The notes below the pieces were generated by a model. It saw only the letters and a list, made by a program, of their open reading frames with translations. It was not told the origin of the DNA and did no database searches. A program made the position numbers and the translations under genes. Positions 1,070-50,325 of a stretch of 64,000 nucleotides of DNA are shown piece by piece (position 1 is the first letter of the stretch; each line of letters opens with the position of its first letter). Origin of the DNA: Gonapodya prolifera JEL478. Its lineage: Eukaryota; Monoblepharomycota; Monoblepharidomycetes; Monoblepharidales; Gonapodyaceae. The stretch lies in assembly GCA_001574975.1 (NCBI GenBank), contig KQ965859.1:60592-124591 (forward strand), written 5' to 3'.

Positions 1070-2193
1070 ATGTCCATTTTCTCGGTCGCATTTCTGCTCA
1101 TTGCGCTGGTCGCAGCGTACAAGCTCATCTTTTCCGGTGCGCCTCCACTCGCCGATCCCGCGTCTCTCATTCCTCCAACCACACTTCACCACTCAATCGC
1201 CCACTCGTTCTCACCTCCCTTCCTTCTCTCCATCCTGCAATCCATCGCCCTTCCCACCTTCTCCCTCCTCTCCCTCCCTCCCTCCTTTTCTACCCCGTCC
1301 CCCTCCCACCAGGTCCGGCTTCAAACCGCCCTCCATCCTCACGCACTCCCGCACTCCGGCCAGTCCCCCGCGCCAAAATCGATGCAGTCGCGTCAATGTT
1401 CCCAGACCTGGCGAGGGATGCCATAGAGTACGACCTCGCCCGGTCCGGCAGCGTCGAACGGACTGTCGACAACATTATCAATGGGCGATTACAGGTACGT
1501 GGGGGGGAGGTGGGAGAGGGGCGAGACGGAATGCAGGCGAGTGAAGTGGAGTCTGCGAGGTCTGGAGTGCGAAGCACGGAAGACCGAGCTGTCCAAGCGG
1601 ACCGAGGACACCGAGACGTGAGCGCGATAGCGCTGACCGAGGAGTCCGCCGAGGGCCTCGCGGAGCGTACACCAAGGACGAAGCGAACCACTGACCGAGG
1701 AGTCCACGAGGCGAGAGCCCCGCGGAGCGAGATAACCTTGCTGAGCGATATCAAGGACTAAGCGCGAAGCGCTGACCGAGGCTGTCGAGCGAAGCGAGAC
1801 GTCCGCCCGAGGCGTTTCAACTAGCGGAGCAGATAACTCTCGCAGATAACCGTGTTTTACGAGTGCTCATGTCTCCTCCTTTGACTCTCACCCTCCATCA
1901 TCCGTCACCCGTGCCAGTCCCCGCCGCCCACATTCCAATCCTCCTCGTCCTCCTCGTCCTCCTCCTCCTCTTCCGGCCCCTCCCGCTCCTCGAACTCCAC
2001 ACCAACGCCACCGCCCACCCTCGCCCTCCTCCAGACCGCCAATAAGGAAGAGCTGGACGCGATCGTGGACAACCCCCCTCCCAGAGTCTGGACAGACACG
2101 CCCGAGTCGCGCGCCAAGAATTTGCGCGATAGGAAACTACTCATGATTGAGCAGGCGAGAAGAAAGTTTGCCCAAAAGAGTGCAGAGTCGTAA
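1070..2193 (+). CDS. Cue1-like ER membrane protein with CUE domain
   Basis: A three-exon gene encoding about 174 residues: exon 1 1070-1136, exon 2 1313-1494, exon 3 1918-2193, with matching phases and GT-AG introns. The N-terminus (MSIFSVAFLLIALVAAYKL) is one membrane anchor. Residues near 50-80 form a CUE ubiquitin-binding domain (VASMFPDLARDAIEYDL, then SVERTVDNIING). A serine/proline linker follows, and a basic C-terminal motif (RAKNLRDRKLLMIEQARRKF) resembles the tail of Cue1 proteins. In yeast, Cue1 anchors the E2 enzyme Ubc7 at the ER membrane for ER-associated degradation; the same role is inferred here from the matching domain order. Intron 2 is unusually long (423 bp) and contains the GACCGAGG repeat described separately. 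The gene is tail-to-tail with the dynein gene. Confidence 0.8.
1560..1830 (+). repeat. GACCGAGG-rich intronic repeat, copy 1
   Basis: This lies wholly inside intron 2 (1495-1917) of the CUE gene. The core GCGCTGACCGAGG occurs at 1630-1642 and 1769-1781, with a variant CACTGACCGAGG at 1689-1700. The cores are embedded in GCGGAGCG/GCGAAGCG words. The same cores occur in an intron of the acyl-CoA synthetase gene (49680-49866). Read along the transcribed strand, both copies have the same orientation. Confidence 0.75.
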
Positions 2194-2504
2194 TATACGT
2201 ACCGTTATGTTGCTACGCCCGCCCTCCCGACCTTGTTCCATTTTTCCCACTTCTCTTCGCCCGCTCTCCATCCCCCACCTCCGGAAGCGTGTCTTGTTTA
2301 AAAACGAGTTTGTTCCGTTCTTCACATCATTGCGTTGACCTGAAACTCGTCATTCCATATTTTCGGACACCTTGCTGGTCCCCTATTCCCCTCTGCATTG
2401 AACAGAACATTATTCTTCCAATCAATACAATTTCTTATAGAACTGTCTTTACGACACCAAAAATAATAATAATAAGTCCCCCATATCCCACACTCCCACC
2501 CACA
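2194..2504. other. convergent intergenic region
   Basis: A 311-bp spacer between the stop codon of the CUE gene and that of the dynein gene, presumably holding both 3' ends. It is A/T- and C-rich with short AATAATAAT runs around 2462-2474. No gene is supported. Confidence 0.5.
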
Positions 2505-5500
2505 TCACTCGCTCAACTGACACAGCAACGCTACACAAAACAAATCAAACAATCAGCACTCCACCCACGCTCAGCACACCCCGCACCCGCACATCCACTC
2601 ACCACACCCCTTGGCAATCCAGTACTCTTGCGGTCTGTCCGAAGGCACGTTGATCGAGAGCACAAAGTTGGTCGAGTGGCCTTGTTGTCACGAAATCACC
2701 GAAACGGCACAAGGTCAGTCTACTCCCCCACCACCTTCACCCCTGTTCGCGCCGCCTCACTCACCAGTCGTCGACAATGTGCCCGCCCGCGCGGCCGTCT
2801 TGTACAGCGGCGCGACGTACAGCTTGTTCTGCCCGTCGGCGATTTGGGGCGTTTGCGTCGGGAGGAAGCGTACGAGTGGCATGGTCTGACAACGGTGTTT
2901 GTTGGGACAGTGAGTGAGCTGCCGCCAAAGTGAAAAGCGCAACATCCCACAGCTCAAACTAACCGAATACATCTCCATCGGGAACGAATCCTGCAAAATG
3001 CGCTTCTGCGGGTCCCACCGCGCGCCCTCGAGGAACAACCCGCGGATCAGAACCCCGTCGTCCTCTTTGCCCTCTGTTCGCTGAAGCGACCCAAGCGATC
3101 CCCGGGACCCGGTGCCCCCTCCCGCGGGCGCTTCCCCCTCGGCGTCAAGAAGGATAAATGAGAAAGTGAGCGAGTCGATGGGAATGTTGTATTTACGGGC
3201 GTGGTTTTGGAGGGCGCCGGTGAGGAATCCTGCGGCGTGCGAAAGAACATGGTTGTGATTGGTGAAAGATCCCTACACCACCAATCAAACTCATCAACCC
3301 CTGGGCCTCTTACCTTGTGGGAAAAAGAACCCTGGCAACCAAAACGACGTCGGCTGCCCCTCGTCAATCCACGACCTCATGAACGCAATTCTCGCTTGGA
3401 GATCCTTCACCCAGCCACCGAGGGGTTTCAAGCTCGGGTACGCCACGTTGGCCCACGACGCGGGCACTTCGTTGTTGAGCAGGCTGCGGAACACGGCCTC
3501 TAGCTCTTCGTTCATGACCACGAGCCCCTTGATTGCCTTGACAAGGCTTTCGAGGGATTTCTTCACGGTTGTGAGAAGCTTGTTGAACCTTGCGCACTCT
3601 TGTGATAGGACAATGGAGAGCGAGTTGAGCACACGACCGTCTGCGTCGGTGCGGAACATCTCTTCCAGGATAACCTTGGGGTCCTTGCTTTGTGTCCCTT
3701 TCGAGCTCCCCACCCGAGCAGATCCCGAAGCCGGCCTCTCTCCCTCACCTCCTGTTTTCGCCTTCGCGGTCCCACTGTCCATGCTAGGTGTGTACTCGAG
3801 CACCAGCGGCGATGGCCATTCTTCCAGGATGCTTGATGTCAAATCAGTTACGATTTGCTCTGGTGATTTCCCCCCCCCGGCAACACCTATACGAGGCTGC
3901 ACGTCCAGTACTGTCCTCACCAGCCGTCGAGACTCCTGCACTTGGAAGCTGATGTTGGCGTTCTCATGCATGCCAAAGATGGACGGATCCTCTGTGATCG
4001 GAAGCTTGTCGATGAAGGATCTATACGAGGCAATGTTGCCGTCTCCAGGAGCGTAATATACACCTGACGGAGAAAACTTGTGTCCGTCCTCCAGGATTGC
4101 GGGAGTATAGAACCGCTGTAAGATACTCCGCAATGTTCGCCGGTCCCAATCATCAGTCACTCGACCGCCAAAGGTGATTTCTCCCGTCAGGTACAGCAGC
4201 GCATCCCACGGTATATGGCGGTACTCTTGCAAAAAGTTTTTCATTATCGTGATGGACACTTCCAGGTCCGAGTTGCTCCAGTCGTACAAAATGTTCCACC
4301 CAAGAGGTCCGAACTTCTTTCGTTCATGAATGAGAGCGTTGAAGAAGCACACCCCAAAGAGAAGTTTCTTGAACTTGGTACCCTGGGGTGGATTTACGTC
4401 GAACACGTCTGGGCTGACGTCGGCGAAACTTCTCGCCAAGTTCGCTCGAAGTCCTTTTGGAGGCTCATTCGTTACCTTGACGCCTTCCTGCAAGACCGCT
4501 ATGGGGAACACTCTCGATGGCATCGACGACAAAAACAATCGGAAGCTGGGATTGACTTGTGTTTCTGGGCTCGAAATATCCCTCACGAGCTGGTCCAACC
4601 GTGTCATCCATGACGCTGCCAGGTGACAATTCTGTAAAAACACCCAGTCCCCAGTAGACATAGCTTTCTTTACGAGTTCTTCCGCAATTGGACCCTGTCC
4701 TTGGCCCAGCGAAATCATATGCAGTCGGTCGCCGTAATTGATTTCTTTCGCGAACCTGAGAAGCGAAGCTATTGGGTCCGAGCCGGCTGAAAGAATGAAA
4801 ATAAAGGGAGTCCTTGCGTTGGTATCTTTGTACGCTCGCCCAATCTCCAAAGGTGGAACCTCAATGAAATCTTTACCGATTCCCCGCTTAATGAACTCGA
4901 TGGCCGACGGAATGAGCTTTTCCTCCCGCAAGGTCTTGATAAGGAGGAGCTTTTGGAAATCTGATACCTTATCACCTCCCTCCCCTGGTATTCGTTCCAG
5001 GAACGGATCATCCGACTCGATTATGACCTCCCACTCAGAGGGGTACATGGTCATGTGCTCCACAATGAACTTGAAAGGGGCAACACTTTGAGTGAGTTCC
5101 ACTACATTTCTCCACATTGAATCCGTTAGCCACGGAACTTGGGGTCGTGGCGGAAACGATTCAGGCCGAGTCACGCCACTGCCTCCTCGGAGAAAGTAAT
5201 TCCATTCCGTATCCTCGATGTACTTTCGTTCTCGCATAATCTCTGTACATATCATGAAGCTGAAGATCATTTTGTGTCGCTCGAAAAGCGCTCGAGAAAT
5301 ATTCTGGAAAATGACTGACGTGATGAGACGATTGAGATCTTCTATATGGACATTCAAATTTTCCGTCTTTGGACAGCTTTCGATGCACGAATTGAACATA
5401 TTTTTGAAGTACTTGAGTGAGAACTGGTACATCGGATCGACTTCCGCGAGATCGGCCACTGCAAAATATAGCACAGAGCCTCGAATAGCAACCGGACGAT

Positions 5501-8500
5501 ATTTTTCTCTTGCAATGTTGATCGCTTTTTCAGTTTGCTCCGAGAGCTTGACGCGCTCAAGAATTGCGGCCGAAGTTACTTTAGATTGGTTTAGGGTATT
5601 GATCAACTCTTCATCATCCAAAATGTTCCCTTGGGCATTAAAGAGAAGTTTCAATATCTTTTCTTCAATATCTTTGAGTGCCTTTTTGTCAGCTGATAGC
5701 GAGATAATCAAGTTGTTCCGCTGTTCTTCTAGTTCTGGTCGTTCGAGGCAAACAACGTCTCCGAGCAGCTGATTCTCCAGTCCATTTTTGGTGACAGTGA
5801 AGTTGATGATAGTTGCTTTGATACAAACTTCCGGAAGGTAGTGAGGATTTGGGAGTTTGGAGGTGATGTACAGGCGGAAGTTTTTGTCGTACTCAACAAA
5901 GGTGTCACCGAGCTTCATCATCAGTCGTCCTCCTTGCCGTACAGTTTGCTTCAGGAGTAGTGGTTCGAGGGCGGGATCGAGTTGTTCACCAACATCTTCC
6001 ATGAGCACAGGTGATCCTGTGCGAATTGCGTTCTCCAAAGTTCGTAGGAACTTGGAGTCTGAAAGCTTGACAATTTTAAGGTCCGGGCCTTCCATTTTGC
6101 GTATCCAATTATTTGCTTGACCTTGCGGGTCAATCATAAGGGGCCACCGTCTCCCTCGATGAACTAAAATACCGTTATCGGTGGAGAGCGCATCAGTGGG
6201 AAGGCCTTGAACATTCCACTCCCGAATCACGACGGGATCTCCTAGAATATCCACGAGCGCAAAATTTTCCAGAACAGGAATGCCAAGGCTCTGACATTTT
6301 GATATCCATTGCGAGACCAGATCCTGTCGGAAGTTAAATGTGAAAGCGCCATAATACGCAACGCATGCGGCAGCTAAGAAAACATTTCCAACGAGCGCTT
6401 CAATCTGCTGGCCAAGGCTGGCTACTGATTCAGTCCACCGAATTTGCTCGTCTGCCAACGCTTGTGTGAGTTTGCTAGCTCGCTGGAGTCGTCGGCTGGT
6501 CTCGTCGATTTTATCCGCCAGTTGCTTTTTGCTCGCAATGCTATCTTCGTACTTCTGTTTGAGTTTGTTCAGTTGGCTCTCAACCTACGAGATTGAATCA
6601 AGTCAAAAAAAAAAAAAAACAACAGTGGCACAGACGAAGCTTCTGGGAATACGAACCTCCTGCAAGGCAGCGGTTTTCTCCGCCAACTTTGCACGTGTTG
6701 CTTCCAGAGTTGCTTGGGCATCTTCAAGTCTCTTGCGTTTCGGCTGAACCTCTCGGTAGACACGTCCATAAAGTTCTAACGCGACAACCCACATACAAAT
6801 CGACTTGCATGCTTTCGATACCTTTTCCACCGCATCTGGCGTGAAACTTGGGTTCTCTATGTACTTTCTCAATTTCTTTAGAATGGAATCTGGTATGTTG
6901 TCTTTGTCGAATTCAACCATCTTCTTCATAAACTGAGGATCCGCAAGTAGCTTCTTGGAGCTATCCCAGTCCGCTTTGACTTTGAACAAAATACAGACGG
7001 CTTCCATTACCAACATAACCAGATCTGGCGGCTTCGAGAAAACCTTCAGCTCCGCAATGTCTTTTTTGTCTAGAGCATCCAAAGCCGAGTACGCTGCCGC
7101 AAGAGCAGGTAGGGCTTCATCTAAATCTTTCTGCGCATCGCGTGCTATACCCTCTGTCTGCTCTGCCTTTTCGCGCACGACAGATTCCTCCTCAGCAACG
7201 ACTTTGCGCACACCATCAGCCGTTTCTTGATCTTTGGCGATCTTGGCCATCAATGTTTCGACATCCTTGGCTTTCTGCTTCAGTTCTGGACCAAGGAGCT
7301 CTAGCTCAACTTGCATTTTTGCAACAAGCTCGTTCGTCTCTGCCAGTTTGCTCAATCCGTTCTTCAGACGATCACATGCCAAACCTAGCTCCTTACGCTT
7401 TTCTCCCAGCATCACAGTGTAAAGGTTAATAAGTTCCAAATAGCTCGTGGGTGTGGTATAATACCGACGTTTAATCTCGTTCCAGTAACGCGTGGATATA
7501 TCCGAAACGCTGACGTGAATCTCCACACACATTGATGAGACTTTATCCTTCATTTCGTCGGACCCAAGGTCGACAAACTCCAGGAACCTCCGCGACACAG
7601 ATAACAACGCTTCTCTGGGCCATTCGTTGAACCAATCGATGGTACTACAATTAACCAGAGAAGGAAACATGCGACAACGATTTCGGAACATATCTCCCAC
7701 TGGGCTTGTTGCGAAGACGATGTGAAGATTGTCCTTCACGCGATTGATAAAAAACTGATAAATGGTGTCGCGATCCTCTGAGAAACCTTGTTGGCGAGCC
7801 AATGGCCGGAGATCGCCGAGAATTTTCTCTCGTTCATCCACCTCGAACAAGTTGGGGACTTCACCGGAGTTTAGAATATTGTTTACGTCCTCAAGAAAGG
7901 TTTCCGATTTAATCTGTGTATCTGATAAAAGAAACACGGTGGTTTTGCCTTCAACGCCTGCGAGTTGATACAGCTTTTTGAGGTCCTCGTGCCACTCAGT
8001 TTCCCCATAAGTTCTGGTCAGTTCAATCTGAATGCACTGATACTCCGAAATGTGGCAGGCGAGGCGAGTAAGAGATTGCTTGCCAGTCCCTCCGACCCCT
8101 ACAAGGAGCGCATTGCCTCGGGGTTGTCTTAGAATACGCGCTATTCTCGTGATATGTTGTTTAGCGTCCAAGAAGAAAATCAACCTCATATCTTTTGAAA
8201 GAGTCACATTGTATTCTTCGAGATACTCCTCGAGCATATTACCGAGAGCCTTTGAATCTGTGATTTCAACATAGTTCCGCTCTTCGACTGGCACACCACG
8301 CTTAAGAAAATCTCCAAACAAAATCGGGCTCTCCACAAGCTGTTCTTTCGTGATTGATACGGTGAAGCTCTTTTCAACCACTTCTGAAATCAACTGATTA
8401 AAGTAGAGTCGATCAACGTCATCAATGAGCCTATCATGGAAAACACGCGCAGCTTCATGACAGAAGAGACGTATGACATCATTTTTAACTTGGCAGAAGG

Positions 8501-11500
8501 CGGGTTTAACCTGCAAGACTCCCTGAACCACCTTCGATAAATCCCTAAGGTTGAAGGTGTAATGGGACTTTGCAGGAGTCGGTAACAACTCTGTGCACAT
8601 CCGGCGGTAAATTTCGATCGCAGAGCCAACAATATTGTCGCAACAGCCACGAACGTCAGCAGAAAAAGTCCGGAAGAATCCTTCCATGATGGACTTGAAA
8701 ATCTTGAGCAAGCTGAGCTCTTGCGGCGCAGGAATATTTATCAAGTTAAAGTGTCTCAACAATCTCCCAGTGATGGGATTCCGTCCACCTCCTGGAGGCC
8801 CACATGCTCCAACAAGCGACACGTCTTGAATTTCCTTCCAAAACAATTTCTCCCTGTCATACCATCCGTTCGATGTGAGATACTGACGAAGCAGTTCAAT
8901 AGTTGGTTGTGAACCATAGCGATCTAGTTTGGGCATATTAAGATCGTCCACGAAAAGCACCACTCGGGCGCTACCTTCGGGAGCGCCAAGAATATTTTTT
9001 CGCTTTTTCTCAAGCTTACTTTCGATGATACTTTGAGTTTGTGCGCTCGTGGTTTGAGCGGAAAAATTTAAGGTGATCGGTATGTAGTTCCTCTCCGCAC
9101 CAACTCGATTGAGGAGGTCCTGTACAATGACAGATTTGCCCACCCCAGTGCTCCCTGTGAGTAGCACGGCATGATCGCCTCCAAGTAGTCGATCGAGCAG
9201 AAATGAATATTTGACCGTATCCGTCGTTGGGACAATGAGTTGGAAATAAGGAACATCGCCAGAATATTTAAATTGGGGAACTAGATCTTCCCATGCTGTA
9301 AATGTCCTGTTCTTAACGTCCACGCAATAATTAAACACGTTGCCCGATGGCAATTGCACATCAGGAATGGCATCTTGTTCGAAAAGCTCATGAATGAAGG
9401 AGTCGAAAGCGTCGTGGCTTCCATCTGCAAGATTTCCACCGATAGACCACACGTAACAAAACAAGAATATGTAGCCCGCGACAGGTTTCAAAACTTCCAA
9501 GGCTTGCTTAAAATCCACTTCTTTCGTTTGAACCAAGAATGTCTGTATGAGCTTACACAAGCTCATTACAAGGGTCACATTGTTAGACGCAACATACTCT
9601 TTGCAAGTTTTTCGAACAAACTTCAATCCTTTGTCGACATACGCTTCGAAAAGACCGATCAAGTATTGTTTAAGCTCATCCGAAACATGGCTCGGCAGAG
9701 AGCATGTCCATGTTGCGACAAGTGGTCTCCAGCCGAGAGCTGTTGGATCCATGTAAACCATACCGCATCGACTGACAGTAGCTGGAGATGCAACTGCAAG
9801 ATCAGCAACTTCAAACAGCATATGCATAGTTGGAGTTAGTTTTATACGTTCTCCGTTCGCGAGGCATAAGAGTTTGTTGTCATCCAGGACGGAATTTATG
9901 TTTTCAATCCAAAGCGCATCAACAGGCCCATCAAACACAGTCCACTTTTCGTCTAGCGTGTTGTCAGTTACTTGTGGACGCACAAGTGATCCGATCAAAC
10001 CGTCCCGCCATTCCATAGTTTGGAGATTGAACTCTCCATAGAGCTCCGCCATCGTGATGCACTGGGAAATTGAAATTCGTCAACAAATCACCGGAGTTGA
10101 TATCGTTAAAACGCCTCACCTTTGGATTCAAAACGTAAGATTTAATTTTTTGAAAATCTCCCGCTTGTCCAAGTCCACGATCCTTTAGTCGGCCCATGGC
10201 CTCAGCGAGAATCTGATAGCTGGTCGTCTTGCCGCCACCAGTTGGTCCAACAAGCATCACACCATGTCGAATCTTCATTGTGTCGTAAAGCTGAACAATT
10301 CTGTCAATCATTGCGGGAACGGCGATCAAGTTCTTCTCTTTCATAAGGCCCTGAATCACCGAGGTAAGAGCCCCATAGTCAACTGCAGGGACTTGAATAC
10401 CGGGGAAAAGATCTTGTAATATCCCCTTGAACAATGGAATGTCTTCAGAAATGAACTTTGGCAGATTTGAATCACGCAAACTTCGAATCAGTACAACGTC
10501 CTCTGTCAGTGACGGATTCGCCCGTTTCAAGGAGCCTGCCATGACCAAAACACTCTTCACAGCTCTCATCCCAAAGTCATAATGATCCTGTTGACTCAAT
10601 TGCTCACTGCAAAGCTTGTACAAGTTAACGACCTTTCCAGAAAGCGCTTTCGCATTTTCGAAGCCCTCCGAATAGAGTATAATTTCCGCGATGAGGCCAT
10701 AATCGGGAATCATCATAGCAATTGGTCTATACATGGCTTTAAGATTGTCTGGGAGTTCTGTCCGACCTGCATAGCCCGGGTTCATTGTTATGAACGAAGC
10801 GCATGTATCTATGAGGCGGATCTCACGACCCTCGAACATGAAGCGGGTTGCCCGCGCGTCCTTCGCATTTTTAATAGTGATGACCTGCTGCGCAATGACA
10901 GACAGCACTTCAATGTCAATTCGATTGAACTCATCAAAACATATCCATGCACCGCTTTGAGCCAATCCGGCAAACATTTTCCCCATCATCTTATAGTCCA
11001 AGCCATCTGAGCAGTTAAAAACAATGCACTGGCGTGCCAAAGCTTTTGCGAGGTCCTTAACGGTCTCTGTTTTTCCAGTGCCTGCAGGACCAACAGGAGA
11101 ACCGCCCAAGTTCAACTGAACTGCTCCGGTGAGTGTCAAGTAGCAGCGATCAGTCAGAGGTGTGATGACTAGGCGGGGGGAGCAGCCTAGATACTCATAG
11201 CCATAGATGAATGTGGACGTGCTCATCTTTACGTGGCATGTATCCCCTTCACTGTCCCAATAGTAGCGCATCTGTTTCGTCCATTCAAAGTCACCCGGAC
11301 TCGAACATTTGGCGTTATACAGTGCCTGAATAATGTCACGATTGTGAACATCTATGGTTATCATGGCACCAAGAATAGCGCGCTGAATCTTCGTCAAATC
11401 ACCCCTGACAAGGGCGGCCAACTGGTTCAAATTCTAGGGCCAGAAGAAAACAGAGGTAAGTCCATTCTTGTACCGAGACGGCACCTAACAAACCTGAATG

Positions 11501-17500: not shown

Positions 17501-17564
17501 CTTCGACGACAGATGAATCCTCCCCATCCGCCGGAGTGGACGTTATTTCTGGGGGCCGGTCCAT
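2505..17564 (-). CDS. axonemal inner-arm dynein heavy chain, DNAH6-like
   Basis: I placed 13 exons: 17564-17210, 17060-16054, 15995-15705, 15640-13525, 13459-12856, 12793-11494, 11433-10120, 10061-6657, 6584-3314, 3229-2964, 2885-2765, 2680-2603 and 2530-2505. All junctions agree in phase and give about 4,717 residues. Domains in order: a Pro/Ser-rich extension (about 1-450), tail, linker, AAA1 P-loop GPAGTGKT (near 2006), AAA2 GPTGGGKT (near 2287), AAA3 GSTGVGKS (near 2632), AAA4 GVGGTGKQ (near 2984), the stalk coiled coil with microtubule-binding tip, AAA5/AAA6 and the C-terminal GHSTNFVLS block. The ending [14 protein letters not shown] is typical of axonemal chains. [14 protein letters not shown] followed by HENANISFQ points to the single-headed DNAH6 group rather than DNAH3/7/12, though this is not certain. 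It drives sliding of flagellar doublets. The start is the first ATG in an open 5' exon; the first acceptor (CCAGAG) is the least certain junction. Confidence 0.9.
6605..6619. repeat. poly(A/T) tract in dynein intron
   Basis: A run of about 14 A on the + strand lies in the intron between dynein exons 8 and 9 (6585-6656). On the transcribed strand it is a T run upstream of the TAG acceptor, so it may serve as the polypyrimidine tract. Confidence 0.6.
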
Positions 17565-17677
17565 CGATTAAGAGGGAAGACACAACCCTCAGCTATTAAA
17601 TTGAGTCTCTGGGTGATGAAGCCGACTGGAAGGAGTGATGGGGAGTCTCGAACGGGGGTGAGTGGAAGATTTCGACT

Positions 17678-17727
17678 TCCCCCACTTTCCCCCCCCACCC
17701 CCCCACCCCCAAACCCCCACCCCCTTT
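17678..17727 (-). repeat. C-rich tract, G-quadruplex-capable on the dynein sense strand
   Basis: The + strand shows repeated C5-C8 blocks separated by A or AAA. On the reverse strand, which is the sense strand of the dynein gene, this gives at least five runs of five or more G with loops of one to three bases. It sits about 115-165 bp upstream of the dynein ATG, in the likely promoter or 5' leader, and downstream of the permease stop codon. Confidence 0.6.
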
Positions 17728-17782
17728 TTATCTCTCTTTCTGTTGAGGAGGGGGTGGTAGTCATTGTAGTTATAAAGTGTAT

Positions 17783-31130: not shown

Positions 31131-31734
31131 ATGGCAACGGGAAACGAGTCGGACGAGTACGAAGACGAGATGGACGAGGACGATTATATGGACGAGGAGG
31201 AGCAGCCAAAGTTTCCCTGCCCTTCGGGGTACGCCGATTGGCCCACACGAGAGGACTTCGGGGAAGATGATCCGCCTACCCTCCAGCTCGTACTGGAACA
31301 GAGATCTCGCATTGCGAAGGGCCTCAAAGGTGCGTTTCCCCGTCCCCATGCGAACTGCGTCAGAATGCACGTTTGGTGTATCCCAAGAGCTCTCCTAACA
31401 ATTCCCCACTCGATCGTGGGATTTTCTCCTGCCCCACCTAGGTCAATCCAACACCTTGTCCGTGGGGGACTGCCTACTTTGGATTGGATGGTCCCTCAAG
31501 GAGCTTCAGCTGCTTATTGTAATGGGAGAGGATAACGAATTTCTCAGGGAAGCGCTGGAGGCAGTGATGAGGTGGACGGAATACTTGTGCGAATATCTAG
31601 AGTACGTTGAAGATGATTGGTGGGCCCTCTCTGAGCGATTGAATGCGCACGGAGGCTTGGATCGGAGGAGGGAGGGAAACGGGGGACACAGTTGTTTCCT
31701 TAATTTCTGCGCTCTGGACGCGCCTAGCGCTTGA
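31131..31734 (+). CDS. small acidic hypothetical protein
   Basis: Two exons joined by a GT-AG intron (31330-31440), phase 1, giving about 164 residues. The N-terminus is very acidic (SDEYEDEMDEDDYMDEEE); the second exon has a predicted helical region (WIGWSLKELQLLIVMGED, then EYLCEYLEYVEDDWW). I do not recognise it. It ends only 75 bp before the first supported exon of the deubiquitinase, so it could instead be the 5' part of that gene. Against this, no donor near its end has the phase needed to join the next exon. Confidence 0.5.
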
Positions 31735-31809
31735 TAACTTAGCGTCATTCTCTGACCCGCTCATCATGTCGTTCCCCTTGCCAAATTACCCGCGTCGCTG
31801 ACAACAAGA

Positions 31810-37800: not shown

Positions 37801-40800
37801 ATGCAATAAACATGTGGATGCCGTAAAAGTGAGTTGCTTCTAGGCGAATAATATGCAAGTGAACTCATCAAGCGAATGTTTGAATCGCTCAGAGCACTTC
37901 GATACGTCATCTGCCACCAACATTGATCGTTCATTTGAAGCGGTTTGACCTGGTAAGAATATCGATTTTGGTTTTTGTGTTGTGTTCTCATATTTTTTGT
38001 CAGGATTTGGAGACGATGCGCCGTACAAAAATTCACGACCGATTTGAATTTCCCGAATTTATTGATATGATCCCGTATACTTCACGCGGTCCGGATGAAA
38101 CTGGTGATCCGAAGCCACTTGGATACCGGCTCACAGGAGTGCTTGTCCACAGCGGCGGGACTGCAGATGGTTGGTGAAAAGTGTCCTCTCAGTGGTATAG
38201 CATTAACCTACTTTTGATCTGCCAGCTGGTCACTACTATTCCTACATCAGATCCCCAAAACCACCACGCGAAGACTGGTTTGAATTTAATGACCGTTCTA
38301 TCTCCCCGTTCAATATAAACCACCTCGAGGATGCATGTTTTGGCGGGTAAGGCCCCTCATCTTTCATTCAACGATGTGATTCGTTTACTATTTAAGAATC
38401 CTTACAAGATATGATGCTCGAAGAGTTGTCAGAGATGCAAAAGAAGTCGTAGTAAATGTTCCTCGCACTAGAAGTGCCTACATGCTGTTCTATGAGAGGC
38501 ATGATGATCCGATGAAGATGGAATCAGCTGTCCCTGATCCTGACTTGCTTCCGGAGATCATAGCATCAGTCGAAAGCGATAATCTGAACCTCATCGGAGA
38601 TATCCTTCTTTTCGACGAGGGTTTCTGCCTTGCAATGAACCGAATGATTATGGACATGTCAAAAACAATTGCGCGTGATCATCCAACATATTACAATGTT
38701 CTGGATCTTGCCTGGCGCGTTCTCTTCACAGTTGTCATAAGAGGCAAGTTGAGCAGATATCAAGTAACTGTGCTTGTTTTCGTCCTGTCTAATATCTACT
38801 TTCACAGTGAAAACGAAGGACAATGCAACGCTTGAGTATTGGTTCACGTTACTCGAACAACTGGTCAAAAATTCACCACATGTAAGTAGCTACTGTCAGC
38901 ATCATGACATTTCCTAACACGCATTTTTTATATTTAATTTTGTTAAATTTTGGGCGGGGGTTCGCTTTAGTCCGTACCTTTCTTGAAAGAGGCCTTCAAG
39001 GAGGACAACTTTCGCTTTGCTCTTCTACATTGCCCCGAGCAGCATGTGCGAGGTCTCACATCCGAATGTGTTATTAAAGTGCTTGGAGGTGTTGGCGAAT
39101 ATTCTCGTTCAGCTCTCCATTCGGTTCTTGAGGCATCCATTATATCGGTGTCACATTTGGTTCATGTATCTGTAGTTGAACGTGGGACAAATTTCACAGA
39201 TCTTGTTTCTCTCATGTCTCGTGTGAGTATCCCTCTGTATTATCACGAGCTCTCGTATGTATTGCGTTCTTATTTTACCGAACCAACGGCAAAGCTTTTG
39301 GATTCAGGTGGAGAGCTCGCCGCCAACGTGATGTTCTCGAACCACATTATTCGTGAGTTCCATGATTAGAGCATCTGTATCAGTTAACGTATTTCTATCG
39401 CGGTTTTGCCCAGGGTCTCTCGCAATTTACACAAAAGTCGAGCTCGAAAAGCGCATTTATCGCACAAACGAACAAAATAGAGTGGCGGAGCCTGCACCTC
39501 GGCCAACTGAACCTGCGGTTGCTTTGATCCGCAAATTGCTTGACTTCTTGAGTCCGGAAGAGATATTTGCAGGGTCGGATGACCGAGTGGAGGCTTTGGA
39601 AGATGTAGCGGAGCTGGCGGACGTTTCCGATTTGAGCAACGGGCGACTCCAGTTCTGGCGGCTCCAAATTGTACTTTGCCAATCTTCGACGGATATTCTT
39701 CAAATTCTCCAAATTATACGGCGTCTTTCGAACTACGGTGGCTTCTCAGAGGCAATCGTTTATCTGGCATTGCGAGAACTCAGCAAGGGGACGAGTAATC
39801 CAAACAATTTGCCAAACTACATTGATGAGGCGCGCAAATGGAGCCTTGTCGTTATTGCAGCAATGGGGGATGATGTAGACCAGGAGGTAGTCCAAAAGCG
39901 GAACGATTCAATCGTCAATTTGATTGTTCACGTAAGCCCACATGACCCAAAGAGGAGTCACCGTGCACTCACAAATCTGTGATATTCGATTCAGGAGTGG
40001 AATCGATCTGATGCCAAGGAAAGTATGTCAAGTCTTTTCAAGAACCTGGCAGAACGAGCACAGAACAATGACAGGGGCGCTTCCGTATTGCTCGAGAGAC
40101 TCCAATCGCAGGCGGTTACTTTAGTGCGCTGTCGCATAATTGGTTTTGCATACGATACCAAGAGTGGTGTTGCTTTGTTTCAGCAACTATTTCTGTGGAA
40201 GAATGAACACTCGTCGCCAATCGAGAGCCTCCTTTCCACTTCTTCCGAAGTCCTCCATGGTGAGTGCGATTAGTATGGTAACCCTTCTTATCAAGTGACC
40301 AATATTGTTGTGGTTGTCTTGCTTCCAGCTGTCGATGAGGTTGTGCGACTTTCAGAATTGAAGAACAACTCAAATCAACCACAAAAGCAACCTGGTCTCA
40401 CCTCCTACAGTTTTCTTTTGTGGTCATGCACCACTCTTGAATCTGTGGCGAAGGTGAGTTGTGGGGAGGGCTGTCGCTGGCCGTGCTCTGACAAGCTTGA
40501 ATCCTGAAGATGCAGGACGACGATATTGAACGTGTCGCTCAAGCCATCTGCTCAGCCATGCGCGTTCCACATCTTGCTGTGGATGTATATGTAAGTGATG
40601 CCCGATGTCTGTTGATGCGCAACGAAAACAATATAATTTCAATAGTGGAGCATACTTTGGATTTGTCGTCTTATTCCGCTGATGCCACTTTCCAGGGTTC
40701 ACAGTCTTTGTTCGAGGGAAGCGTTCCGACAATGTCTGGAGCAGGGCGGGTATTCGGCGTCTCACTTAGCACTCTGTGAGCGATTGGATTCAGTTTCCAC

Positions 40801-43386
40801 CAATTTCGCACCTTGACTTCTTATCTACACTTCTTCACTTCTAGCTGAGACTCTTTCAATTGAGAATGCTTGTGATCTTGTGACGTCATACTGGACTTTG
40901 CTGGATGGTCGCTGTATCATTCCTGGGGACACACCACAGTTCCAGGTCATTTTGACAGAGGCTATCTTGGTCGTAGCGCGACAGCATGCCCAGGGAGTGA
41001 CCACTGGCAACGTTTCGGTAAGAATTTAATTTTTTTCGATTTCGATGCTGGCATTCAATTTTTGTTGTCACTTTTGGGTACTACAGAAAGAAGTTTCGAA
41101 AACGTTCGTCAAGGCTGAAGCCCTATATAATCGATTTTACGAAGAACAAGCTTGGTCTCATTGGACTTTAACAGCAGCCATTCAAGCCCTCACCAGGCAT
41201 ACTCGTGGAGCAACTTCTAAAGGATTCCGAATGCACGACACTGCCATTAATATGCTTGACGTGGTTTTTATAAAAATTTTGGAGAAAGTTCAAGGGGTGG
41301 AAAACTTTCCAGTGGTAAATTTTGTCCCTTGATTTCGGATGAACTGAGCATCTTGATTGACCTATCCTACCAAAGGGGGACATGCTCCGTAAAATGATAC
41401 CATTGTTGAACCCCCTTTTCTTGGCTCTCATTCACGGAGATGCCACTGAGAGTCGCATCGATTGCGTGTGCAGTTTTGTTATGCATATGCTCAAGCACCC
41501 CGAATGCAAAAAAGAGCGTGAGTATCAATTTTTGCCCCCGAGTAACCTTTCATTTTTTCAAGCATTTGCTGCGTTATGAATACGCTTCAGTGTCCAACAC
41601 GATGAGCATTGGCAAGCCTGTCGATCTTCTTGAACCTTTGTTGATGGTATCCTGGATGTTGCAAAATGATGATGACGAAACAAAGCAATCTTTCGGATAC
41701 GGTAAACAAGCGTTTGTGCTCCCCTTTTTGCTGCAAATTTTGACTCTAGGCGTTCTCTAGACCTGATCGATGCGATTTATGTGCCCAAGGAGGAACGGAA
41801 TGGAGCTAGTGACGAGATTGTCCACCGGTGGTTGCGCATTCTTGGTTTCATTGAGGATGTATACAGCTTCCGAACTTTGAGGAACTTGGATGAAAGCCCG
41901 TTCGCGACAATTACCCGTCAAGCGACTCCCAGCTTACTGATTTATGCCCGCAACTCCAAGGTCCAAGGCATGAAGATTAGAGACAAGATGCAATTGCTTC
42001 ATACGGCACTGAATAATCTTTTCGAACGCGGATTGCAACTTTCGTCGACTCCGCTGTTTGTCGCGAGATTTTCCAATATGGGTAAGACAATAACAACTTC
42101 AAACTCACCGCAATCTAAACTGGAACACAATTGTTCTTTCCCTGAATTCTCCCGCCTTTTCTTTTCCACCGCGGCCTTGAAGCCTTATACATCAGCCTGA
42201 CCATGCTGCCCCACCAATCCCATTTGCTCTGGAGTTATTATGATGAGTGCCGCGAGGGTCAAGCTCTGCATCCCAAGACTGGTATTCTCGACGCAATGCT
42301 GCGACGCAAGGCACTGCACCGCATCGCCCCGAGCGCGCAATATAGTGACGACTTTCTGGATTCGATGTACGGATTGGCGAAAATGAGAGTAGTTCCGGTG
42401 AGTACCTTTTTATGAAATCGACGTTTCGGGTGGGATTGTTGTCTTTCGTGAATGGCGGGTTGAAAAGAGACTGTATCGATGATGCGGGAAGGGAATTGTA
42501 CCTTACGATTCACCTGTTGATTCGTTTCCTTCATTCTAATTTCACTTTTGTGATTTCAGACCCACCGAAAGGAGATCGATGATGAATTCAAACCCAAGCA
42601 AGTTTGCCGCCGGTTCACGCATGGTGTGAAGACTTTGCGTATACATGCAGAAGAAGAGCCGTTTGATGTGGCCTTCTATGAGAGTATGAAAGGCTTTTTA
42701 AACCGGATGATATTTGTGGGTTTCTGTGTGCTTCCCTCGTGGTAACGTGGTGATTGCAGCTTGACATGGACGCCCCATGTTCTTTTTCACAGGACGCTCT
42801 CCTCCTGAACGCGTTTCTCAATTTTTACACTCCATTGAAGGACGACAATGCATTTTTAGATGCGCTGGACATGTTCACGATCACAATGGGGGCATACATT
42901 GCGCGCGTACGCGAAGAAAGGGACAAGGGAACACTGCGTGATATTGTGGGAACAGGGACGCCCGCAGACGTTGCTATGGAGGATGTTCATGGGGAGGGGA
43001 GCGCAGGATCGAACCAAACCGACAATGATGGCCCAGACTTTCACAAGTTGACTACATGGCTACCCCAAGAAAGCGACGTCTGGGGAAAGTGGACGGCTCA
43101 CCCGATCGAAAGACGTGCGACACGGCTCTTGTGCTTCGTTGACCGGGTAAAGAGACTGGTGAAAAAGGAGGTGCCTCCCGATATTGCCCAAAAGGACGAG
43201 ATTAAGAAAAGGGGAGAACCGCCGCTCAACTCGGATGCAGCGGGGCACGATGAGGAGGTGAAACAAGAGGAAGACGAATATGAGAGTGATGAGGAGGTTG
43301 AAGAGGCAGATGAGCAGGGAAAAGAAGAGAAAGCAGAGGGTGCTCAGATGGCGATGAAAGTCGTGGGAAAAGTTTTTCGAATTTAA
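31810..43386 (+). CDS. giant ubiquitin carboxyl-terminal hydrolase, USP9X/USP34-like
   Basis: An 11.6-kb gene with more than 20 short introns and perhaps 3,000 residues. The N-terminal half is a helical-repeat scaffold (e.g. LSDDLRTHLASKVSQHLRRA). A ubiquitin-like fold at about 34990-35270 contains TVRVLRGGKEWTDSKDK. The catalytic USP domain spans about 36990-38490. Its Cys box, GLRNLG joined to ATCYQNSTLQQLFMV, has the Cys codon at 37115-37117. MDVDEFFNQTMDRL follows, then a zinc-type CDECNKH. LPPTLIVHLKRFDL precedes the His box ADAGHYYSYIRS (His codon 38231-38233) and WFEFNDRSISPF. The long C-terminal scaffold ends in an acidic tail (QEEDEYESDEEVEEADEQ). It would remove ubiquitin from protein substrates. 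The start ATG at 31810 is tentative. A run of 21 T (35534-35554) lies in an intron just before an acceptor. Confidence 0.85.
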
Positions 43387-43568
43387 TCAAATATCTTGCA
43401 CGTTTCATCTTGCACGTACATGTTTCAAGCGGGGGCTTTCCTGTTTAGCCGGGTTCTTCCGTTGCAGAAACTGAACGCAAGGCAAGAGGGCGAAGCGCAC
43501 CCGCAGAGATCGCGCGAGGCAGCAGACCGCAGACACACGGTGCAGGGGAGCGGGCGAGCGCTGGTGCG

Positions 43569-45661
43569 ATGATGTCGCGTGAGAATGGCGAGCTGCTCTC
43601 GCTCTTCGATCCACTGGACGCAGGCAGCCGCAGCACTGGACTCCGCGCAGACGAGAAGAGGGCGCATGCGGTGGACAGCGGTGTACTTGATGTGGCGGGC
43701 GTGGTCGCCGCGGGGTCCCCTTCTCCCCGATCAAGTGGTCGTCCCAGGCCAACACCGAACCACAGGAGAGACCATTCGCCAATGCCGGCGCTCATTCCGG
43801 TGACCGCTGCCCAGTTGGCGTATTCTCCGCACACGCGAGCGCAGTCCGCTGCTCCCACCGTCTCCCGCTCACACAAAACACCCCACGCAGTCGCACCACC
43901 TCCTACTGCGGGCCCCCAGCTCCAGTGGCCTCCTCCTGACTCCCAACGGCACCCTACCCTTCAGCCGGACTGGGCTCAGTTTATTCCCTCATCCCCACAC
44001 TCCCAGCACGGTCGCTCCGTGTCCCTCACGCAGCCACCCCACCCCCATTCGTCTCCCGCAGCACCCACGCCGCCTCACTCTCCACCGCTATCATCACCCG
44101 GCGTGAAGCGCTTTGTTGTTCACGAGGTGAAGAAGTCCGACACACTTGCAGGCATTGCCCTTCTCTATGGTGTCAAGGTCAGTACCACCCTTGTGTTTCA
44201 ACTGAGGGCAAAAGCGGCGAGCAAGACAGTGGAAAGTCTGCGGAATGGGCCAAACGCAGAGACACATCGAAAAACCTATACTACATGTGGATACTCCAAA
44301 GAGATTCATTAGCGGTTTTGAAGAAGTTCTGGTTTAAGGCTTGCCCATGAAAGCAACTCGTTCACCTCACGTTCCCAAATTCCCATCCACCCTTTCACGC
44401 CACTCAGATTTCCGACATTCGCTCTTCCAACACCCATCTCTGGCATTCCGATGCCATCCACCACTTCCCCAGCCTCCACGTCCCCCTCGACGCAATCACA
44501 GACCCCACCGTGCGATCTTCTATCCCTCGAAATCTCATCTTCTCCATCGCCGCCGCGGACCGACAACCACTTCGTCGCCTCTCGAGGGATTTGAGCATGG
44601 AGAGACTTCAAGGTCGACTCTCGGGCGAGCGAGAACGAAAAACGTACGGCGTAGATAAAGAGGGCAACGTCCTCGCACTCCGGAGAGAAGGATCGACCGG
44701 AAGTGGCAGTAGCACTGCCACGTCAATCATGCCCCCGTCCCCAACCTCGTTCCGCGCACCACCTGTTGTCCCCTCGCCGCTGTCTCTCCCCTCAAACCCC
44801 TTCTGGGGAGTCTCGGACGATCCAGACCTGGATGCCGCCGTCGTGGTGGTCGTCCCTGGGTCCTCAGAGCCGCACCGCTCGCAGTCGGAGTCGAGTGTCG
44901 CACAAGCAGGATCCAGCGCCGCCAAACCTCCCGCCGCTCTCAGTCGCGGAGCAGCGTCGGCGTCGACAGGATCGCTTTACTCCTCTTCGGCGACCGCGTC
45001 GACTGCCGGCGGCGCCGCCCGAAAGTCCGACTCACGTGCAACCACATCGTCGCTACTCAAGGCGGTGGACGCGGACCTCGAGGAGGCTATGCGGAATCTG
45101 CGGGACGTGTTTGGAGACGGGGTCATGAAGGGAGTGAAGACACGGTCGGGCGATTCTTTGGGTGAGCCTTCAGGAAGGCCCGAGGAAAGGGGCAGGGACA
45201 TGTCCCGGCGCGCAGAGCCGAGCTCTTCGGGCCGTTTTGTGGCCGTGGGGGATCGCAGCCTCGTCTCGGGCTCTGCTTCGCCTGCCTCGCAGACGTCGCC
45301 GTCCGTCCCGTTTGTGGATCCTGCTGCCCTCCCCCGGTTCGTCAGCTCGTTTCAGAACGACCCCGTGCTCCACACGGGTCCGCCCTTACCTACTGCCGTC
45401 GCCACGTCCTCAGCGCGCCGTCGCCACGTCTCCGCGGCGGGTGGGTGGCCTTCGAGTGAGAAATCTGCCAAGCCGCGGCGGAACATGAGTGGGACAGCAC
45501 TCGTAACACTGGGAGGAAAGGGCGCCAGCGTCGGGCGAGCCGCCAGACAATGGCTGGGTGGAGGTGCCAAAGCTGACGATATGAAGGGGTTTGTGGGACT
45601 GGACGAGGAGGACGATTACGGTGGGGAGAGTTTGTTATCGATGGAAGGGAAAAGGAGGTAA
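43569..45661 (+). CDS. intracellular LysM-domain protein, LYSMD-like
   Basis: Two exons; the intron (about 44179-44407) splits the LysM domain. Two ATGs at 43569 and 43572 open the frame; there is no signal peptide. A Pro/Ser-rich N-terminal region leads to the LysM: HEVKKSDTLAGIALLYGVK, then ISDIRSSNTHLWHSDAIHH and LHVPLD. The spacing and the W-x-SD-x-IH pattern match eukaryotic LYSMD1-4 proteins rather than secreted chitin-binding LysM effectors. A long Ser/Ala-rich, disordered tail contains one likely helix (LLKAVDADLEEAMRNLRDVF) and ends DDYGGESLLSMEGKRR. Function of this family is poorly known; a role in membrane-bound compartments has been suggested for animal members. TAA at 45659-45661. 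Confidence 0.75.
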
Positions 45662-46740
45662 TTCTGCGTCTCGAGACGCATGTTAGCATGAGCATGAGAC
45701 CTCATATTTAAAAGTGTGCACTTATACTACAATATAGAAGGATCTATTTTTGCTGCATGAGATGAAGGGTTGGGTGACCAACTGGTTCACCGCCCTCCTC
45801 ATATCGTTGCCTGCGTCATCAGACATAGGACATGGTACGGCTCCGCGCGATCGCCTCCTACCGATTGTTTTACTAGTTGGATAGATTTTGGCAATGTATG
45901 TGAGTTCGAGTAATGATCTCCCATATTCACTGCACGAAAACTACACATATAGCATTATCGTTTCGGTTTGTACAACGCATTGTGTGACATGCTACATACC
46001 TATGAAGAGTTCTGTTTCCATCAAAGTGATTCGATAGCCCCTTCCACCATCTCTCCCTACTTTCCTTCATGACTTCGGTACGACGATGAGGGTTCGTCGA
46101 TCTGGGTTCGTTGATGTTGGTTCGTCGACGTTGCTGTCGGGGCGGGGTCCGCTATAACGGGGACAGGGAGGTCATGAAAACGAAGCCAAAATGTTCAATA
46201 TAACTCTCAGCTCACGAAACACCATGTTGGTCGGCAGGGGCGGTATCGTGCCCATCAGAACTTCAAACGGCACCCCAAGAGCTGCAAGCTTTCGCGAGCT
46301 CGTTGGTTTTCACCGGGACCCAAGAGCTACAAGCTTTCGCGAGCTCATTGGTTCCTGCAAAGAGTGGAAGACGAGTCAGTGATGCGACCACACCTGTTAG
46401 CGGCGGATACACTCACGAAGCACCAGACGGGACAACCACATGAAGATGGAAGCGCAGGAGTGTTGCTGGAGCGAGAAAAGGGAATGATGCGGCGTTTGCT
46501 GACCCGGAAGACTCGAGGAAGGTCATGTTGAAAAGTTGTGCTGCGGTTATTCGGTCCTTCTTGAACGTTCAGAGGAGGCCCGTGCACCGGGCGACATTAA
46601 AATGACGGGATGGTGAATTAAAAGGGAGAGAGGCTGACTCAACTCTGCCACGTCTCTTTTCCTGTCGTTCCACTCAAATCTCTCACAGATAGTTCATCCT
46701 CAGGTGATTGCGACATATTCTATTCTGATATACATTTCAT
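45662..46740. other. 1.1-kb convergent intergenic region
   Basis: A spacer between the LysM stop and the acyl-CoA synthetase stop, larger than expected for convergent genes. It contains a short GGTTCGT/TCGTCGA-rich stretch (46088-46132) and the direct repeat at 46274-46353. No coding region is supported on either strand. Confidence 0.5.
46274..46353. repeat. 35-bp direct repeat, two copies, period 45 bp
   Basis: Copies at 46274-46308 and 46319-46353 begin CCCAAGAGCT and end TTGGTT, sharing AAGCTTTCGCGAGCTC. They differ at two positions by eye. They lie in intergenic DNA between convergent genes. Confidence 0.8.
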
Positions 46741-49700
46741 TCAAGCCTTTTGCTCTCCAAAGAACTTGGTCAAATAGTTCCGGTTCAGTTTTCCGGTGGG
46801 ACCTGGAAGCATCGAGAAAACTTGAGCAAACCCCCTTCCGAGAATTTCAACAAATGGAGATCTTACCTTTTGGAATCTCACTGACGATCCAAATCTTCTT
46901 TGGCACTTTGAACTTCGCCAGAATTTTCGTGGCTTCTTCGCAAAGAACCTTGTCGGTGAGCGTGTCTTTCGCCTCGGGTTTTACAATGACGCAAATTTCA
47001 ATCTCCTGTCCGTACAGCTGCGAAGCGACGGGGAACGTGCAAGCCTCGGCGACACCGGCAATGGTGAGGAAAGCGGCATCGATCTTTGGGGGTGGAGTGG
47101 TGGGAACGAGAGGAATGATAATTTGCAACACACATGCCCCCCATGAATTGCTTACTTCGAGGGGACTGATCTTCTCTCCTCCCCTGTTGATTTGCTCCTT
47201 AATCCGTCCGACGAGGAACAGGAAGCCGTTGTGGTCCTGCAAGGGAGTTTACAAGGTTGTCACAGACACCCGACAGAGCAACATTAGAACCACACGCTCA
47301 CCAAGTAGCCAAGGTCCCCTGTCCGGAAGAACGGCAGCGCATTGGCGTCGTTCGGGTCAGGGAAGAACGACGAGGCGTTAGCGGTGGGGTTCTTCCAGTA
47401 CCCTAACAACAAACCAACCATTGTCACGCGAGGGCGAAACAAAAACTCTCTCCTTCCTTCAAATCTCACCTCCCATAACGTTGACACCCCTGACGCACAC
47501 TTCTCCCGTTTCATCTGCAGCCTTGTACTTGCCCGCGTCGTCCATCACGACGGCGTCTACGCCGCGGCCTTTGCCTACAGAGCCGGCAAAGCGCTGAGCG
47601 GGCGGTAGGAAGTTGGAGCACACCTGGTGCGCGGCTTCCGTCATGGCGTAGGCCTAGCGGAATGGAGTCATCGTTTCAGTAAGAGATGGTCACACAGAAG
47701 GCGTGCGCGTATCATCAAGGACGAGCTTACCTCCAGTACGGGTCCCTTGAACACGCTCTCCAAATCCTTAAGCACCTGCGGCGCTCTGCGTTGGGAAATT
47801 TCACGTGAGATTCAGGGTCGAAGACGACGAGCACCAAGCGACGAGACAAACGCACAAGCTCGAGCTGCAACTCCGGATGAATCGCAGCCGGCCGCTGTGT
47901 CCCGGGTACGTGTCCGCGCGGCGGTTGAGCAGCATCTGGTGGATGGTGGGAACAGCCGAGTACCTGCCAGATGTCAGAGGCAGGGGCACGCCGCGTTCAG
48001 TACCGTCAACAAAACCAGTAGAGCAGAGGAAGAGCAGGGACGCACCAGCTGCAGTCAAAGTCCACAAAGTCCTTCCAGAAGTCGCCCACACTGAAGCGAG
48101 GGGGCACGACTGCCGTACCGCCGGACGTCAGGGTAGAGAGGAACGCGCCGATGAGACCGCTGTGTGAGAACAGAGGAAGTATTGGTTGGTGTTGGTACGC
48201 AACGCAAACGCGGAGTCGATTCAGAGGAAAGGATCACATACTGCACGTGGAAGAGAGGCTAGAAGACGCAATCAATGAGAAGTTTAACCCCGTCTGCGAA
48301 CCACGAAAAGGCCCAAAGCCCACCACCCACCATAACGACAAGCGTGGTGTCTTCGGGTGCGAGCTGGTACGTCGCGCGGATGTTGTGGAGCGAGGTGAGG
48401 ATGTTGCGGTGGGTGAGGGGTACGCCTGACGAAGGGCGAGGGGGGGAAAGAGGTTAGGTTTGTGAATGTGAACCATTGAGACAAGGGGTGGTAGCGTACC
48501 TTTGGGTCGGCCCTGAACATGAACAGCGGTCACGTGGGGCGTCAGTGAATAAGTTTAGCCTGGGTGAGTGGAGAATCAGTACTTACTGTCGTGCCAGAGG
48601 TCTGCAAGTTTAGCAAAAACCACCATGAGCCAACTGCCACACCCTCACACCACACCACAACCCCACCACTCACATGCAAGAACAGCGCCGTCTCGCCCAA
48701 CAAATCCACCTCCTCCTGCGCTCCCGCTCCCACGCCCTTGACACGGACAGCATCCGGGCTGGCGTGGCCAATATTGGCGCCCCCAATGTCAGAGTTGGCG
48801 AGGGGTGTCGTGAAGGCGCTCCATTCGGGGGGTGCGACGGCGGTGCCGGACGAGGGCGTGTCGGAGGCGTGCGGAGCGTAGGCGATTTGTACGGTGGGGA
48901 TGAGCCCGCGGGCGGTTTCGAGGGTGCTGGTGTCATCCGATCAGGCGAGAAGAGGGAGTGCCGGGTCCGGAGAGAAGTGCGATTATAAAAATTGGGAGTG
49001 GGCGGTCCGGAGAAGAGAGCGATTCGAGAAGTGTGAGAAGGAGGTCCACGGAGAAGCAGGATTTGTCAAGTGAGAGTGCCAGATCACAGTACAAACACGA
49101 TTCATCAGCAACGATCACCACACCCAAACCACACCACCACCACCGCGAAAACCGAGCCCACTCACTCGACCCAGACCTCCCACACCGGAATCCCAAGCTT
49201 CTTGGCGACATTGCGGCTGGCCTTAGCCTCACCGCGGGGGACAATGACGACGCGGGCCTCGAGGTCGTTGAAGAAGAAGTCGAGCTCGTCTTCGGTGTAC
49301 TGCAGCGTGCGGTGTCGGTGGGCGTCATCGGCAATGGTGTGGGGTGTGGTGATGTTAGGATGGGAGATAAGGGAGACGAAGACGGACAGTGCAAGGCGGA
49401 CGTACGTTGGGGTTCAGGGGCGCGGCGACGGCGCCTCGGCCCGTGACGGCGAAGAAGACGGCGAGGTACTGGGAGTGGGAGTGGTGGTGAGGTGTTTGGT
49501 TCAGGGGGATGGGGGATGAGGGATGAGGGATGAGGGGTGGGGGATGGGGGATGGGGGATGGGTGTTGAGGTATCAGTGATAAAGGGAGGAGGGACAGACA
49601 GGATCCACGTCAGATCACATGGCATCGTGGGTAAAACGCAACTTAAGGGGGTAAAGAAAGACGATAGAAGTCGCCTAGGCCTTGGTGACAACCTCGGTCA

Positions 49701-50325
49701 TCGCTTCGCACTTCGGCCTCGGTGAGAGTGTTCGCCTCCGGCGGGAATAATAGCCTCGGTCAGCGCCTATCGCGCTTAAGCCTCGATGTCGCTCCGCGGC
49801 GTATGCCTCGGTCAGCGCCTAGCGGCGCTTAGGCCTCGGAGTCGTCGCTCCGTTCGCTGCGCTCACCTCAAGCGAGTTTGGAATTGGGAACGCGACTTTA
49901 TCACCCTTGTTGAGCTTGTTGAAGGGAGGCAGGGAGGTGAAGAGGCCAATGACCAGTCTCAGCTCGCGGTACCTGCGACGCGGGGGCACCAGAAATGAGA
50001 CGAATCGGCACAGAGCGAGTCAGAGTGCCGCATTGGACGCGCAAAAGAATAGACCGAGGTGTTTGGCAACACGAATTGCTCCCGTGGTCTTGGCATGACA
50101 CAACAACCCCGACCTCGCACACGGTTCGCCATCGCGAGGATCGCATCCCTTCCCAGTCCGACGCCAGGGCGATTCGATCGATACGCACGAGACTCTGTAT
50201 GGGCTCGCCTTTCCCGACTTGACTCTGTTAGGGATGATGACAGCCGTGCGGGTCGAGTCTGGGAGGGCATCGTTGAGTGATTTTGGCAGTTTGACAGTTG
50301 TCTCGAATGAGTGATTGGATGCCAT
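46741..50325 (-). CDS. acyl-CoA synthetase / AMP-binding enzyme, Pcs60-like
   Basis: A reverse-strand gene with about ten introns. Exon 1 starts at the ATG 50325-50323 (MASNHSFETTVKLPKSL, then RTAVIIPN); its donor is uncertain. Then come YRELRLVIGLF, KGDKVAFPIPNSLE, YLAVFFAVTGRGA and the AMP-binding loop TSGTTGRPKG, assembled across introns near 48500-48600. PLFHVHGLIGAFLSTL, WYSAVPTIHQMLL, YAMTEAAHQV, TGEVCVRG, FRTGDLGYL, the hinge GRIKEQINRGGEKISP and C-terminal GPTGKLNR complete the fold. The enzyme adenylates a carboxylic acid and transfers it to CoA. The motifs fit fungal Pcs60/Fat2, which act as oxalate- or medium-chain acyl-CoA synthetases in peroxisomes. The terminus FGEQKA is not a clear PTS1 signal. 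An intron at 49469-49866 carries the GACCGAGG repeat and a GGGGGAT minisatellite. Confidence 0.85.
49502..49564. repeat. GGGGGATG-type minisatellite in intron
   Basis: About eight imperfect 7-8-bp units (GGGGGAT, GAGGGAT, GAGGGGT). It is inside the second intron (49469-49866) of the acyl-CoA synthetase gene, near its acceptor. G runs on the + strand mean C runs in the transcript. Confidence 0.75.
49680..49866 (-). repeat. GACCGAGG-rich intronic repeat, copy 2
   Basis: On the transcribed (reverse) strand it starts at the donor (GTGAGCGCAGCG). GCGCTGACCGAGG occurs twice (49806-49818 and 49754-49766) and GCGATGACCGAGG once (49692-49704). They are separated by GCGGAGCG-type words as in the CUE intron. 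The host intron is 398 bp, close to the 423 bp of the other host intron. Confidence 0.75.

Follow-up and report, generated by a model that had tools for sequence, protein, structure and literature searches.

Introners and the introner-like elements (ILEs) of fungi are whole introns that make new intron positions (PMC4457414, PMC9860276). Those of Dothideomycetes number in the hundreds, with related copies spread over unrelated genes, are fixed in sense orientation and restricted to genes, and have no reported terminal inverted repeats or target-site duplications (PMC4457414, PMC9860276). The repeat element of Gonapodya prolifera JEL478 described here is similar in copy number, in the variety of its host genes, in its fixed sense orientation and in its restriction to genes, but its copies have no sequence in common near the splice sites and the host introns that were tested pre-date it. 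MITEs and non-autonomous DNA transposons in introns are, like the element, short, non-coding, dispersed and hairpin-forming; unlike them, the element has no visible fixed ends or terminal inverted repeats, is nearly absent from intergenic DNA and lies in sense at a ratio of about 65:1. Two further systems resemble its building blocks: DNA mini-hairpins with GNA loops, such as d(GCGAAGC), are known from oligonucleotide work, and the Allomyces mitochondrial double-hairpin elements and the GC clusters of yeast mitochondrial DNA are mobile-looking non-coding hairpin modules. One application of mini-hairpin DNA has been described (PMC4686876). Such mini-hairpins have the same stem and loop as the GCGAAGC, GCGGAGC and GCGCAGC units of the element (on the non-template strand), but they were described as oligonucleotides, whereas the element is a dispersed genomic repeat. 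The double-hairpin elements and GC clusters are mitochondrial and not restricted to nuclear introns. A literature text search (incomplete coverage) returned no report of a dispersed genomic repeat built from mini-hairpins, or of a hairpin repeat confined to nuclear introns in chytrids.

We analysed a 64,000-nt stretch of contig KQ965859.1 (the window), in which the 13-base core GCGCTGACCGAGG has eight matches with up to two mismatches, compared with 1.7 expected across the whole window. Six of the eight fall within the introns of a CUE-domain gene and an acyl-CoA synthetase gene, three per intron. The features are as follows.

1495..1917, plus strand: 423-nt spliceosomal intron (GTACGT...CCAG) in the CUE-domain gene, carrying element copy 1
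1502..1846, plus strand: element copy 1, sense; extent from BLAST with other sampled copies
1630..1642, plus strand: core GCGCTGACCGAGG of copy 1
1688..1700, plus strand: core of copy 1 with two mismatches (CCACTGACCGAGG)
1769..1781, plus strand: exact core of copy 1, within the AGCGCGAAGCGCT hairpin (GAA loop)
49469..49866, minus strand: 398-nt spliceosomal intron (GTGAGC...CCCAG) in the acyl-CoA synthetase (AMP-binding) gene, carrying element copy 2
49681..49866, minus strand: element copy 2, sense; 5′ modules start at the donor itself (GTGAGCGCAGCGAACGGAGCG)
49692..49704, minus strand: core of copy 2 with one mismatch (GCGATGACCGAGG)
49754..49766, minus strand: exact core of copy 2
49806..49818, minus strand: exact core of copy 2, within GAGGCCTAAGCGCCGCTAGGCGCTGACCGAGG

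The original prediction, which had read one repeat with three cores in each of these introns and in the same direction relative to transcription despite the opposite strands of the genes, was borne out, as all six cores are in sense, and the family proved larger than it had seen. Both introns are supported by their spliced products. The CUE junction joins MFPDLARDAIEYDLARSGSVERTVDNIINGRLQ to SPPPTFQSS, and the spliced peptide matches Pfam CUE (8.8e-10) in a domain that stops just ahead of the junction; the synthetase junction reads ...VAFPIPNSLE|YLAVFFAVTGRGAVAAPLNP..., and the AMP-binding domain (7.8e-15) crosses it. Also as predicted, the host introns are longer than most, given a median of 99 nt for sampled non-element introns, and copy 2 does begin right at the donor of the synthetase intron (GTGAGCGCAGCGAACGGAGCGACGACTCCGAGGCCTAAGCG). 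Copy 1 consists, in order, of the end of a G-rich leader, 5′ modules (GCGAGACGGAA...GAGTC and GCGAGGTCTGGAGTGCGAAGCACGGAAGACCGAGC; exact 5′ module match at window position 1557, that is, C129:62148) and cores with a mini-hairpin array. BLAST with other sampled copies returned these two elements alone in the window, where there was also no tRNA match and no Rfam family (snoRNA or other known structural RNA) at gathering score.

Across the 47.6-Mb genome, the exact core occurs 441 times (245 on the plus and 196 on the minus strand), compared with four occurrences of a reversed-pattern control (one plus, three minus). A two-part core, GAGGCCTAAGCG-N3..8-CGCTGACCGAGG, was found 158 times and a separate 5′ module, GAGGTCTGGAGTGCGAAGCACGG (up to three mismatches), 163 times, compared with zero in each case. 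A viral or prokaryotic source was considered and rejected, the two-part core having no exact match in IMG/VR or GTDB contigs. We read 3–6 kb of sequence around each of about 65 loci, sampled by exact core and contig order. The sampled copies span about 90–355 nt (10th–90th percentile) and often carry at least two cores, mostly 50–180 nt apart. Where copies from different genes are compared, the best long matches have 76–92% identity, which argues against a very recent burst in the sample; near-identical copies, a sign of recent activity in introners, were not found among the sampled subfamilies.

The element is a non-coding, modular repeat. Its unit comprises a core hairpin (CCGAGGCCTAAGCGCC-loop-GGCGCTGACCGAGG) and, after it, a series of mini-hairpins that have 4-bp stems and G-N-A loops and are separated by short linkers (for example, CGCCGGAGGCG, CCGCGAAGCGG, TCGCGGAGCGA and GCGCGAAGCGC); units sometimes recur in head-to-tail arrangement, and they often follow a 5′ module, of which there are several kinds. 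The order on the sense strand is donor, leader (often G-rich), at least one 5′ module, core hairpin, mini-hairpins and a tail to the acceptor. The hairpins are strand-specific: those with G-N-A loops and stems of at least 4 bp number 124 in sense, compared with one on the other strand and about six in shuffled sequence, and GCGNAGC occurs 227 times against 14 for its complement form.

The family occupies many unrelated genes in a fixed orientation. Among 70 sampled distinct core clusters, located with a self-trained gene finder (about 300 kb of training sequence) and corrected with Pfam and by reading of the sequence, 65 lie in sense introns and a single one is antisense; the other four are a chance match and three undecided clusters, each of the three being preceded by a donor in sense. 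None is clearly intergenic. Gene direction is fixed by conserved Pfam domains for about 30 of the 65 sense-intronic clusters, and Pfam domains flank or run across many of the spliced junctions of element introns; Pfam and inspection placed the element in sense introns at the RRF, uS14, DTD, TUB, CutC, Maf, UBC, TMEM208, NUXM and ABC loci. The sole clear antisense copy is intronic (MAGE/NSE3 gene, L056; ~1915–2160) and full length, with a GAGACGGAACGAACGAGG 5′ module. One apparent copy (L062) was discarded as a chance 17-bp match. The genome encodes NUXM, a fungal complex I subunit, as well as PACRG, a ciliary gene; the two point to a zoosporic fungus as the probable host and make the term chytrid plausible. 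The orientation is also evident independently of gene models: GTGAGT is about 8-fold enriched in sense 50–150 nt upstream of the first core, with the antisense donor near background, and GTGAGT-N25..55-GAGGCCTAAGCG occurs 58 times genome-wide, compared with zero for the same pattern with a reverse-strand donor. About half of the window lies outside gene models, although some genes were missed there, so the near-absence of the element outside introns is, on this approximate comparison, unlike chance placement in non-coding DNA.

Element-bearing introns in the sample have a median length of 348 nt, compared with 99 nt for other introns, and the element lies towards their 5′ end, with a median of 28 nt from donor to element and 113 nt from element to acceptor. 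The repeat does not run from donor to acceptor. Neither donor-side nor acceptor-side intron sequence is common to the copies: leaders vary in length and content, and the tails are C/T-rich, unique to each copy and alike in simple C/A-rich words alone. G5 runs are present in 17 of 39 leaders (about four expected), and one 5′ module begins exactly one base past GTGAGT in 7 of 16 copies. In this genome, G-runs often follow the donor of an intron and C-rich tracts often close it, whether or not it carries an element, and both traits are strongest beside elements (L001–L070).

Paralogs indicate which came first, the intron or the element. All four element introns that could be tested, in three genes (one in a kinase, two in an SDR gene and one in an aldehyde dehydrogenase (ALDH)), have element-free paralog introns at the same position; insertion created no new intron position in any of them. 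The kinase intron (L058; AT|C GAC) has a 76-nt element-free counterpart in the tandem paralog L081, identical in base position and in phase, both SDR introns (introns 1 and 2 of L022) are element-free in L073–L076, and the ALDH intron (L055), which directly follows a 5-nt micro-exon (CTCGC; ~1954–1960), recurs without the element in L090 and L091, where it again follows a correspondingly placed 5-nt micro-exon. The tested paralogs have diverged to 50–76% protein identity, compared with 76–92% between element copies, which suggests that the elements came after the introns. Element-free introns at shared positions, together with flanks that copies do not share, mean that the element invaded existing introns, usually close to the donor and often past a G-run. 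The introner reading is thereby ruled out for the tested introns. Accordingly, one of the two options in the original prediction, a repeat that is tolerated in introns alone, agrees with the data (65 of 70 clusters sense-intronic), and the other, a chytrid introner family, is unsupported.

Some paralogs also differ in the introns themselves. The kinase intron, at amino acid 111 of the L058 fragment, is common to the two tandem C8 paralogs L058 and L081 only; given that six other kinase paralogs have no intron there, it may itself be young, independently of the element. The ALDH micro-exon, which is needed for the ALDH frame, lies between two introns and reads CTCGC in L055 and L090 and ATGGC in L091, and the paralog L088 has neither flanking intron. 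In a distant paralog of the epimerase gene L017, a core match (G000:C10:664510) lies just downstream of an exon (C10:664899-665228) and may belong to an element that sits in another intron of this gene family.

From the intron location of the repeat family, its fixed orientation, its nearness to the donor and the four insertions into existing introns, we infer, with somewhat more confidence than doubt, that the element, which lies almost only in sense, spreads from intron to intron by a transcript-linked route. Fixed orientation and near-absence outside introns both point to such copying, which would account for the strand bias and the intergenic emptiness together. The likeliest mechanisms appear to be of two kinds. 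Intron RNA might be copied by reverse transcription with template switching, the cDNA then recombining with the gene; alternatively, strand exchange might take place shortly after the splice donor, on the single-stranded non-template strand of an R-loop. Further hints are that leaders hold more G-runs than expected, that the G-N-A hairpins are restricted to the non-template strand and that one 5′ module keeps a one-base spacing to GTGAGT, the last being expected if copying begins at the 5′ end of the intron or if GTGAGT serves as microhomology. As for signs of an RNA intermediate, the element has no poly(A), no defined ends and no reverse transcriptase tied to it. More tentatively, the family may represent a class of selfish element that parasitizes introns without making them and that moves via the transcript, or else via the non-template strand once displaced; such movement alone would lead to intronic, sense placement just past the donor.

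Three other explanations were weighed against transcript-linked spread. Transposons in introns commonly show orientation bias in other organisms, and the element could be a MITE-like non-autonomous DNA transposon that inserts in either orientation, with sense-intronic copies alone surviving because copies in antisense bring cryptic 3′ splice sites and those in exons disrupt genes. The antisense strand is indeed about nine times richer in acceptor-like sites (184 scoring at least 4, against 21 in sense; the median of real acceptors is 4.2), so some of the strand bias could result from selection after insertion in random orientation, and selection against antisense copies may add to that bias under transcript-linked spread as well. 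Selection on splicing cannot, however, account for nearly empty intergenic DNA. Shared termini were not seen either: copies differ by whole modules, and terminal inverted repeats or target-site duplications are not apparent by eye at ends too modular and variable to delimit. We regard a MITE-like origin as unlikely.

Less probable still is that selection maintains the element for a function in introns, as an RNA or a splicing module. Its hairpins would then shorten the distance from donor to branch point or bind a splicing factor, and the module would spread by aiding the splicing of longer introns. Branch-point-like CTRAY words are frequent in sense (8.7 per kb, compared with 0.9 antisense), and base pairs of GCGNAGC covary beyond shuffled pairing, both at the third pair (139, compared with a shuffled mean of 117 and maximum of 134) and at the fourth (108, compared with a mean of 62 and maximum of 81). 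This covariation may, however, come from a few inherited subtypes rather than from independent compensation. Total folding energy is no better than that of shuffled sequence, whether folded as RNA or as DNA (z ~0), and so does not support a global RNA structure; Rfam gave no match in the window, the copies are variable and the element is probably in only a small share of introns. That the element is a true introner or ILE, each copy having made its own intron with donor and acceptor included, is very improbable: the fixed orientation and the bias towards genes, which fungal ILEs also show (PMC9860276, PMC4457414), the 5′ module abutting the donor in 7 of 16 copies and the apparent lack of the L017 element intron in three distant paralogs speak for it, but all four paralog tests gave the same intron without the element, and neither leaders nor acceptor-side sequence are shared.

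Introners account for the birth of introns. Repeats that are common to introns and lie in one orientation are not, by themselves, evidence of intron gain, and the family described here would show a second process, in which repeats with a fixed orientation and no intergenic copies colonize existing introns and lengthen them (median 348 nt, compared with 99 nt). If its movement is transcript-linked, the family would offer a natural and tractable system for studying how RNA or R-loops guide the transfer of sequence into genes.
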